Shown here: in pieces, positions 882-3,185 of the stretch
How the letters are laid out: each line of letters begins with the position of its first letter
Numbering within the stretch: position 1 is the stretch's first letter
From: Planctomycetota bacterium
GTDB lineage: Bacteria > Planctomycetota > PUPC01 > DSUN01
Assembly (NCBI GenBank): GCA_016872875.1
Contig: VGYW01000491.1
Location: 1 to 5,922, forward strand
DNA: 5,922 nt
Direction: 5' to 3'
Notes under the pieces: model-generated
What the model was told of the DNA's origin: nothing
Database searches by the model: none
What the model saw: only the letters and a program-made list of their open reading frames with translations
Made by a program: the position numbers and the translations under genes

Positions 882-3185
882 ATGGCCCCTCTGAAATCGG
901 CAATCGGCAATCGGCAATCGGCAATTGCGATGGCCGCCGTCCTCCTCCTCGCCGCCCTCCTCCGCTGCATCCCACTCGGCCTATCCAATCCGCGCCCCTT
1001 CCACACCGACGAATGGGACTTCGTGGACTCGGCGGTGCGGATGTGGGCGGAGGGGACGCTGGACCCCGGGCGGCCCTACGTGCATCCCGGCCTCTACCGC
1101 TACTCGATTGCGGCAGCCTACCCCCTCGTGTCTCCCTTGCTCCCGGCCTGGGTGGATGCCAAGTGGGTGCCCTGCGTGGCGGGGCGGCTGGTGAGTGCGG
1201 CGATGGGCGTGCTGGCCGTGTGGCTGGTCTACCGCCTCGCTCGCCGCGTCCTGCCTCCGGGTGGCGCGCTCGCCGCCGCGCTCCTCCTGGCCGTGGCGCC
1301 CCTGCACGTGCAGTTCTCGCACGTGGCGAAGCCCGACGTGATGTCGGCGGCGTTTGTGGCCCTGGCGACGCTGCTCGCGTGGCGCCTGGCCGAGGCCGGC
1401 CGGGAGAGCGAGGCCCCCGTAGGGGCGCCCCTTGTGGGCGCCCGGCAGGGGGCGGGGACAAGCCCCGCCCCTACAGGAGCCTCGCCCTCCCGCCCGCGCT
1501 CGGGGGCGCCGCGGCGGGGGCTCTACGTGTGGGCGGGTGTGGCGGTCAGCCTCGCCGTGGCGTCGAAGTACAGCGGCATCGTGGCCGCCGCGCCGGTTGC
1601 CGTCGCCCACTTCATTGCGCCAGGTGTCCGCCGCCGCGGGACGCATGCCCCAGCGCAGCTTGGGCGTGGCACCCACGGTTCCGAAGCGGAGGGGCCGGGT
1701 GCCACGCCCAGGCTTGTTTGGGCGTGGGCGGCAGGGAGGAAGCTGCTCTCGGCGGACCTCTGGCTCGCGGCGGGATGCAGCATCATCGCCTTCGCCATCG
1801 CGTCGCCCTACACGCTCACCAACCTGCGCACGATCCTCGCCGAGGCCAACCGCATCATCATCTCGCGGGCGCCGGACCCCGAGGCATTGCCCCAGGCGCC
1901 CCCGCTCGTGCAGGTCGCGCGGCAGGCGTGGGAGTGGGTCGGCCCCGTGCCCCTTCTCCTCGCGGCCGCCGGCGTGGTGCTCTGGTGGCGCGAGAGGCGG
2001 AGGGCGGCGCTGGCCGTCGTCGGCTCCGCCGTCGTGGCGACCGTGGCGATGCTCTCGTTCCTGGCGGTGCAGCAGCCCTTCTACCTCCTGCCGCTCGTGC
2101 CGGCCGTGGCGGTGCTCGCCGCGGTGCCCATCGCCCACGTGTGGTCGCGGCGATGGGACTCCGGGGCCGTGCTCCTCGCCCTGTGCCTGGCGCCGTCGGC
2201 CGTGCTGAGCGCGCGGGAACTCGTCCGCTTCTGGCAGCCGGGCACCCGGCAGCTCGCCAGGGCGTGGCTCGAGGAGAATCTGCCGGAGTCGCGTGGCTAT
2301 ATCCTCCGCGACCACGACAGCCTGGAGCTCGCGGCCGAGGAGTCGCTGCCCGTGATTGACGCCGGCTTCAGCTTCTACGACAGGGTGGACCGCGATCACC
2401 TGAAGCGGCACGGCATCACCCACTTCGTCCTCAGCGACACAGCGGCGGCGACGGGCCACCTGACGCCCGAGGCCGCGAAGCGACGCTCCGAATCCCACGC
2501 CCGGCTCCTGGCCCTCGGAGAACGCCTGGTCTACTTCCCCCGGTTCTGGTGGCGGGACGGGCCGCGGATCGAGATCTATAAGGTCAAGGAGAGCGTGCTC
2601 GCGGAGTTCGCCCGCGAGCACGAGCAGGTGGCGAAGGAGCTGGGGGCGAAGGTGAAAGCGGTCGAAGACCGCCTCGCCGCCGCCCCCGGCGACGCCGCGC
2701 TGCACATGGAGGCGGGCCGCCTCCTATGCGATCAAGCCGACGTCAGCCGCTGGGATAGGGCGGTCGCGCTCTGGCAACGCGCCGAGGGGCATTTCCGCCA
2801 AGCGAGCAAGGCCGCGCCCAGGCTGGCCGATGCCCACTACAACCTCGGTTGCCTCTACCTGCGCGTGGCGAAGCGGGTGGTCCTGGCCGAAGGCGCCGAC
2901 CGGGCGGCCGGCGTCTTTGCCAGGGCGGCGCAGGCATTTCGCGACGCCATCGCCCTCGACCCGAACCAGGCGGACTACCACTTCAACCTCGGCTACGCCC
3001 TCTGCTCCCTCGCGTCGGCGGCCACGAGAAACGAAGAGGCCCGTCGCCTCGCGCTCGAGGAAGGCGTCCGCGCCTACCACCGCGCCGCCGAGCTGAACCC
3101 TGACATCCGCCTCCCCGACGCCGATAAGCCCGGCCCCCCTCACATCGAGGCCGTCGCCGAGCGCGGGCCGCAGCCCTTCCGCTGA
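882..3185 (+). CDS. GT-C (GT39/ArnT-like) membrane glycosyltransferase with C-terminal TPR region
   Basis: Predicted 767 aa from ATG 882, which has GAAGG five bases upstream. ATG 930 (residue 17) is a credible alternative because the first membrane helix starts there. Residues 17-440 hold many hydrophobic helices typical of PMT_2/GT39 proteins. HTDEW at 41-45 supplies the Asp-Glu pair expected in the first outer loop (candidate catalytic D43/E44). SHVAKPDV at 146-153, ASKYSG at 227-232 and SPYTLTNL at 308-315 match the family pattern. Residues 450-570 look like a soluble outer domain (GITHFVLSD, then GPRIEIYKV). A charged helix leads into degenerate TPRs at about 600-740 (AHYNLGCLYL, AIALDPNQADYHFNLGYAL, AAELNP). 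Family role: transfer of a sugar from a polyprenyl-phosphate donor at the outer membrane face; the acceptor is unknown. Odd: residues about 180-199 and 254-282 are encoded by palindromic repeats, and residues 6-15 by a 7-bp tandem repeat. The GT2 gene downstream could make the donor (inference). Confidence 0.8.
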   Translation: MAPLKSAIGNRQSAIAMAAVLLLAALLRCIPLGLSNPRPFHTDEWDFVDSAVRMWAEGTLDPGRPYVHPGLYRYSIAAAYPLVSPLLPAWVDAKWVPCVAGRLVSAAMGVLAVWLVYRLARRVLPPGGALAAALLLAVAPLHVQFSHVAKPDVMSAAFVALATLLAWRLAEAGRESEAPVGAPLVGARQGAGTSPAPTGASPSRPRSGAPRRGLYVWAGVAVSLAVASKYSGIVAAAPVAVAHFIAPGVRRRGTHAPAQLGRGTHGSEAEGPGATPRLVWAWAAGRKLLSADLWLAAGCSIIAFAIASPYTLTNLRTILAEANRIIISRAPDPEALPQAPPLVQVARQAWEWVGPVPLLLAAAGVVLWWRERRRAALAVVGSAVVATVAMLSFLAVQQPFYLLPLVPAVAVLAAVPIAHVWSRRWDSGAVLLALCLAPSAVLSARELVRFWQPGTRQLARAWLEENLPESRGYILRDHDSLELAAEESLPVIDAGFSFYDRVDRDHLKRHGITHFVLSDTAAATGHLTPEAAKRRSESHARLLALGERLVYFPRFWWRDGPRIEIYKVKESVLAEFAREHEQVAKELGAKVKAVEDRLAAAPGDAALHMEAGRLLCDQADVSRWDRAVALWQRAEGHFRQASKAAPRLADAHYNLGCLYLRVAKRVVLAEGADRAAGVFARAAQAFRDAIALDPNQADYHFNLGYALCSLASAATRNEEARRLALEEGVRAYHRAAELNPDIRLPDADKPGPPHIEAVAERGPQPFR
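895..925 (+). repeat. Heptanucleotide tandem repeat AATCGGC x4
   Basis: Four exact head-to-tail copies of AATCGGC (895-901, 902-908, 909-915, 916-922) are followed by a partial AAT. The array lies between the two candidate starts of the GT-C gene (882 and 930) and reads as IGNRQSAI when translated from 882. A near-identical array (AATCGGA x4) is found in the same relative position of the GT2 gene at 4559. Confidence 0.95.
1419..1474. repeat. Double-hairpin palindromic element B, inside the GT-C coding frame
   Basis: Halves 1419-1443 and 1450-1474 are inverted copies matching at 19 of 25 positions. All six differences are compensating (CCC...GGG on one side, GGG...CCC on the other), so both hairpins survive: stem GGGCGCCC with loop CTTGT, and stem GGGGCGGGG with loop ACAAG. 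The loops are complementary to each other. The ends are GTAGGGGC and GCCCCTAC. It is translated as GT-C residues about 180-199, a Gly/Ala/Pro-rich stretch between two membrane helices. Six of its 20 codons end in A or T, against one of 40 in the stretch 1743-1862. Confidence 0.9.
1644..1727. repeat. Palindromic element C, inside the GT-C coding frame
   Basis: A perfect 14-bp inverted repeat, TGGGCGTGGCACCC (1661-1674) and GGGTGCCACGCCCA (1697-1710), flanks a 22-base centre. Each arm can also fold outward: 1644-1650 with 1662-1668 (7 pairs, one G-T) and 1702-1709 with 1720-1727 (8 pairs). The plan resembles elements A, B and D but its halves align less well, so membership of the same family is tentative. 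It is read as residues about 254-282 of the GT-C protein. Nine of 27 codons in 1641-1721 end in A or T, unlike the flanking gene. Confidence 0.75.

Follow-up and report, generated by a model that had tools for sequence, protein, structure and literature searches.

The window, that is, the entire 5,922-nucleotide stretch of planctomycete DNA (contig VGYW01000491.1) analysed here, carries a gene for a GT-C glycosyltransferase, followed by genes for a UDP-GlcNAc 2-epimerase and a family 2 glycosyltransferase, with four palindromic elements, A to D, in and between them (Table 1). The glycosyltransferase gene, referred to as the host gene because both elements B and C lie within it, starts with ATG at 882 and comprises 767 codons, all open, which encode the PMT_2 domain and then the TPR repeats. 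A search with its protein returned 31 hits including the window's own entry; with this entry excluded, 20 homologues had E < 1e-140. The named glycosyltransferase homologues belong to Planctomycetota, as do most top relatives of the epimerase encoded beside it.

Table 1. Features of the window and the evidence on which each was placed.
Feature	Position	Strand	Evidence
Element A, intergenic double palindrome upstream of host gene	747-824	.	Inverted repeat, 29-nt arms, 90% complementary
GT-C glycosyltransferase gene, host of both insertions	882-3185	+	PMT_2/GT39-like with C-terminal TPR repeats; Pfam PMT_2 and TPR
Stretch holding loop 1 insertion	1395-1508	+	38 residues vs 1 in homologues; net +37 residues, 111 bp
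Left arm of second palindrome family	1401-1419	+	16/19 identical to L123 arm; next best + match 14/19
Element B, head-to-head dimer of GTAG-tagged REP hairpins	1419-1474	+	Covariance model R2, 66.9 bits, E 3.8e-11
Right arm of second palindrome family	1474-1492	-	19/19 identical; next best - match 13/19
Element C, multi-hairpin palindromic repeat, other family than B	1642-1728	+	Covariance model R1, 67.6 bits, E 9.7e-15
Element D, GTAG head-to-head dimer by eye	4455-4511	+	Fold of 4455-4516, z -6.27

The core of element B reads GTAG, hairpin, spacer, hairpin, CTAC. Its tags are outermost (GTAG at 1419-1422 and CTAC at 1471-1474), as expected of a GTAG REP, and both the fold and the covariance model R2 give two inverted hairpins with the tags outside, which is the arrangement of a head-to-head dimer. 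R2 was built from five of six dimers counted in one pattern scan of the planctomycete genome G265, the window being excluded, and its E-value refers to the window alone. The model returned exactly the boundaries that had been proposed by the sequence-only reading, and together with the fold it confirmed that B is real, lies at that position and is in an open frame. Folded as single-stranded DNA, 1415-1478 gives a pair of hairpins with an energy of -25.3 kcal/mol and a z of -3.18, and 2 of 200 shuffles were as good. R2 also detected six G265 dimers outside its training set (69-82 bits) and three copies in genome G151 (34-53 bits), with no match at E<=0.01 on two loci carrying element C, L292 and L216. 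Within the window R1 and R2 match only C and B at E<=1, the minus strand of each palindrome being matched as well.

Element B is flanked by arms at 1390-1418 and 1475-1503 that are complementary at 23 of 29 positions, a value reached in none of 20000 shuffles. Of 35 viral-contig loci, 3 carry this second palindrome in inverted pairs: L121, L123 (twice) and L134. Of these, L121 and L134 resemble one sequence seen from opposite strands. The two copies on the L123 contig, at 5048-5124 and 7758-7834, have similar surroundings. None of 392 planctomycete genomes holds the palindrome with both arms exact, and the family is thus based on viral contigs. Element B therefore has the appearance of a GTAG dimer set within another palindrome.

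Element C is of a different kind. The model R1 was built from five full copies in genome G165, again with the window excluded and E given for the window alone, and C aligned to it over positions 1-87 of 87 with the same hairpin order and sequence, which makes it a member of the G165 family. It had been placed at 1644-1727; the element is real and in frame, with limits slightly wider than proposed. The fold of 1644-1727 has a z of -4.27, none of 200 shuffles being as good. No GTAG or CGTC tag was seen by eye at the ends of 1642-1728 or of the five-copy consensus, and C was therefore filed as a separate palindromic repeat family. The arms pattern of C was found in 2 of 392 genomes of the phylum, G376 (20 copies) and G165 (5), compared with a single reversed-control match, in a third genome; it was found nowhere in the viral contigs. 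R1 scores the plus strand of each G165 training copy at 84-91 bits and the G376 copies at 24-35 bits; the latter share mainly the inner arms and have other outer parts, and were rejected as members of the same family.

With up to 2 mismatches allowed, the B half-element has 68 occurrences in G265 (34 exact), 40 in G151 (3 exact) and 64 in G273 (none exact, a sister variant); its reversed control gave no match in any of the three. A looser pattern, GTAGGGGCG-N20..50-CGCCCCTAC, is present in 26 of the 392 genomes of the phylum, in many with other stems; its reversed control gave one match in 8 of the 392. The proposal that B and C are repeats is thus borne out by family members of both in other planctomycete genomes. 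Copies elsewhere were judged to be coding when at least 60 open codons lay on each side and GC3 exceeded GC2 by more than 0.15 on both flanks. Clusters were drawn from 30 G265 regions (mainly exact copies), 20 G151 regions (half of its 40 sites) and every C copy matched by pattern in G376 and G165; copies less than 150 bases apart were counted once, except in G165, whose clusters were judged by eye from printed values with no start codon required, and a contig edge cuts some of the regions short. Of the 73 clusters, none qualified as coding (0 of 34 in G265, 0 of 20 in G151, 0 of 14 in G376 and 0 of 5 in G165), a result whose sole positive control is the window's own gene and whose four genomes include no close relative of the window. 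In-frame copies therefore look like survivors of selection.

Further repeats accompany these two. R2 does not match element D at E<=1, so the stems of D are of another type; its GTAG (4455-4458) supplies the TAG stop of the epimerase gene (ORF 3340-4458). Element A folds strongly (740-830, z -6.12) and ends in GTGGCAC, a heptamer that also occurs inside element C. The interval 3188-3298 between the host and epimerase genes contains an inverted repeat of GGACGAGGACGA-type units. Three weak microRNA matches in Rfam, far below gathering scores, fell on element A and the repeat 3197-3286 and were discarded, as were matches of 33-37 bases to a tape measure gene in three phage records. Tandem repeats of 7 bp lie in frame near the starts of the host gene (AATCGGC, 895-922) and of the family 2 glycosyltransferase gene (AATCGGA, 4559-4586), and the homologues P0002, P0004, P0007 and P0012 of the host protein have similar N-termini.

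The host protein was compared with 19 aligned homologues, 46-74% identical to it; the window's own entry (P0001) was dropped, P0017 and P0022-P0031 were left unaligned as partial or weak (E 2e-16 to 6e-4), and P0015 does not cover loop 1. At loop 1 (columns E171 to P210), all 18 covering homologues have 1 residue where the window has 38, and at loop 2 (G248 to L288) 18 of 19 homologues have 7 residues where the window has 39, so that loop 2 is bare in 18 of the 20 compared proteins, the window counted. Since the loop lengths are fixed in the homologues, the bare loops represent the ancestral state. The comparison establishes that both stretches are insertions. It agrees with the expectation that residues 176-212 and 252-285 would be gaps in relatives, and none of the homologues carries the window's residues at either loop, the nineteenth, P0003, having 17 residues of different sequence at loop 2. 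The sequence-only reading had put the additions at about 20 and 29 residues, which proved too low: the net gain is 37 residues (111 bp) at loop 1 and 32 at loop 2, and the B insertion reaches past 1419-1474.

DNA of close protein relatives was confirmed for none of 23 genome-contig and 18 viral-contig pattern hits. An alignment search gave no close orthologue in a set of 20 genomes (E<=1e-20) or in two classes represented by 17 and 23 genomes, nor in 392 genomes of the phylum at E<=1e-50, this last being a weak absence with about 2 candidates scored per genome; one distant relative of the host protein was present in G165 (E 9e-48, 1 of 8 genomes). Because close orthologue DNA was not found, a target duplication could not be defined.

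Both elements leave the reading frame unbroken, as had been claimed. This openness is in itself unsurprising, since 4 of 6 frames of B and 6 of 6 frames of the C core (1657-1714) are free of stops, and with so few stops an open frame comes cheaply once the length fits. Upstream of the inserts, GC content at codon positions 1, 2 and 3 is 0.74/0.51/0.88; the stretch separating them has 0.75/0.57/0.88 and the downstream part 0.74/0.52/0.96. In the inserts, by contrast, it is flat (0.82/0.84/0.84 in the first and 0.79/0.76/0.70 in the second), which fits non-coding repeats turned into reading frame. In the two inserts together, 16 of 73 codons end in A or T, as against 64 of 694 elsewhere in the gene (p = 0.002, Fisher test). 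The C insert is significant on its own (10 of 33, p = 0.0009) and the B insert is not (6 of 38, p = 0.25), and codon bias was consequently dropped as proof for B. Earlier counts of such codons agreed for C (9 of 28, against 9 of 27 claimed) and for the adjacent control stretch (1 of 40), but not for B, where there are 4 of 18 and not 6 of 20.

An AlphaFold2 model of the host protein, from a 16-sequence alignment, had a mean pLDDT of 78.1 and a pTM of 0.67. Its first PDB matches were the GT-C enzymes OST/STT3 and ArnT, with TM-scores of 0.37-0.50 and E-values of 1e-6 to 1e-5. Both inserts are predicted to be coil, with pLDDT of 45-50 over 10-residue blocks; this is weak evidence, as the inserts are gaps in the other alignment rows and five more stretches fall below 50 (residues 1-9, 31-42, 141-149, 323-336 and 745-767). 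The first insert lies between predicted helices 151-175 and 211-229 and the second between 232-245 and 276-288. The two would thus flank one helix pair and be expected on the same side of the membrane, and the Arg-rich native loops suggest that this side is the cytoplasmic one. The HTDEW and HVAKPD stretches, which are common to the homologues and which we take to be catalytic, are intact in the alignment. One tryptic peptide that insert B would yield is QGAGTSPAPTGASPSRPR.

A search of 5.8 billion proteins with the 41-residue B region gave 77 candidates and, beyond the window's own protein, one match. This is P0032, a SpoIIE-type phosphatase with the B peptide in a linker, seen at the protein level with a database-wide E of 0.1 and a pairwise E of 8e-10. 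The closest homologue found for it, in G165, is 75% identical on one side of the site and 79% on the other, and with 502 residues versus 525 leaves a 23-residue gap where P0032 has the B peptide; a homologue in G180 has 499 residues. The same search with the C region yielded no other protein among 21 candidates. The loop 2 peptide of P0003, RGQATFSDGKVACPL, is unlike that of the window, and a perfect 23-nt hairpin could encode it, compared with a maximum of 21 in 480 background windows from five homologues and 17 in 200 shuffles. The test is blunt, as it gives 20 for the B peptide of the window and 13 for its C peptide. No hairpin encoding the P0003 peptide was found in viral contigs, and the peptide itself suggests a third palindrome at loop 2. 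A 14-residue insertion in P0010 scored 13 nt and does not stand out as palindrome-compatible.

RAYT transposases have been hypothesized to move GTAG REPs (PMC3733652). All 7 repeat-bearing genomes encode PF01797 transposases, but so do 15 of 18 genomes in which neither pattern matched. Among 40 PF01797 genes in the seven repeat-bearing genomes, none of the 10 whose fetched flanks were examined had a B or C element in them; one of these loci, in G031, carries GTAGGGGC sites. B and C are presumably mobile, with a Y1 (HUH) REP-associated transposase as the putative agent of their movement.

These data very probably reflect the in-frame insertion of two palindromic elements of different families into two neighbouring loops, where they have been tolerated. 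In the proposed course of events, two miniature elements, B as a GTAG REP dimer and C as an untagged repeat, entered the gene; at the B site an older insertion presumably came first, with B landing inside that palindrome afterwards. The insertions keep the frame, add no stop and lie in short loops that bracket one helix pair, selection having presumably removed harmful ones. The enzyme probably still folds and works, with the inserts as disordered, nearly neutral additions.

An unlikely but noteworthy alternative is that the enzyme was damaged by the insertions and the gene is a pseudogene in the making, its frame open by chance. The inserts are indeed large for loops otherwise fixed in length, and the rarity of stops in the elements makes such an open frame cheap; against this stand the full length of open codons, the high downstream GC3 and the conserved intact stretches, although a recent insertion would look alike. 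Considerably less probable is that the inserted peptides have acquired a use, with loop 2 as a preferred site. The different, palindrome-compatible peptide of P0003 in the same loop speaks for it, but most compared proteins have this loop bare, the inserts are predicted coil, the C peptide has no relative among its candidates, and the hairpin test does not set the window's own peptides well apart.

Assemblies are known to fail at repeats, and only a single contig is known to encode the window's protein, which would accord with an assembly chimera. A chimera would, however, join different loci, whereas here the same gene resumes in frame and at the expected residue after both elements, making this explanation very improbable. 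That the stretches are ancestral low-complexity linkers lost in relatives is hardly credible. It has in its favour that Gly, Ala, Pro and Arg abound in the peptides, but 18 of 18 and 18 of 19 homologues would have had to shorten their loops independently to the same length, and by the covariance models the DNA matches repeat families elsewhere.

Beyond tolerated insertion in this gene, it is a tentative and rather doubtful extension that the lineage repeatedly fixes several unrelated palindromic families in frame in loops and linkers, with certain loops serving as landing sites. If so, repeat insertion would be a recurring source of new disordered loops, represented by two in the window, one in the SpoIIE phosphatase and a putative one in P0003. 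The double insertion in the host gene, taken by itself, extends translated REP insertions to a polytopic membrane enzyme of known fold and shows neighbouring loops of one protein being used by two unrelated repeat families. The fixed loop lengths in 18 homologues offer a clean empty-site reference for measuring insertion tolerance.

REPINs consist of two REP hairpins in inverted orientation forming one unit, and element B is built alike, with the difference that movement by a RAYT transposase can only be presumed for B. Closer parallels are given by a survey of GTAG and CGTC REPs, PVC bacteria included, which describes these inside ORFs as dimers or groups encoding 20 to 30 residues (Di Nocera 2013, PMC3733652). 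The cases it presents comprise double insertions in uvrA genes of O. terrae and different REPs near one recB site in two Xanthomonas species; REP dimers sometimes lie inside other palindromes, GTAG can supply stop codons, and tolerance of insertions in linkers or loops was proposed (PMC3733652). The window resembles these cases in its tagged dimer within an ORF, two insertions in one gene, palindrome nesting and the stop supplied by the GTAG of element D (PMC3733652). It had been suggested that the double insertion would be a distinct example; since a 2013 paper had already described dimers in frame, two insertions in one gene and sites shared by different REPs (PMC3733652), this is weakened, and the window is better seen as a new example of a known phenomenon. 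It differs from the cases presented there in the membrane glycosyltransferase host, the second insertion lacking GTAG and the Planctomycetota lineage (PMC3733652). Rickettsia palindromic elements (RPEs) are likewise translated in frame within unrelated genes (PMC10969869; PMC3733652); RPE-1 is described as longer, and RPE-4 and RPE-6 as CGTC REPs. As far as these descriptions go, B and C work like RPEs in being translated in frame, a likeness that carries no claim of RPE membership.
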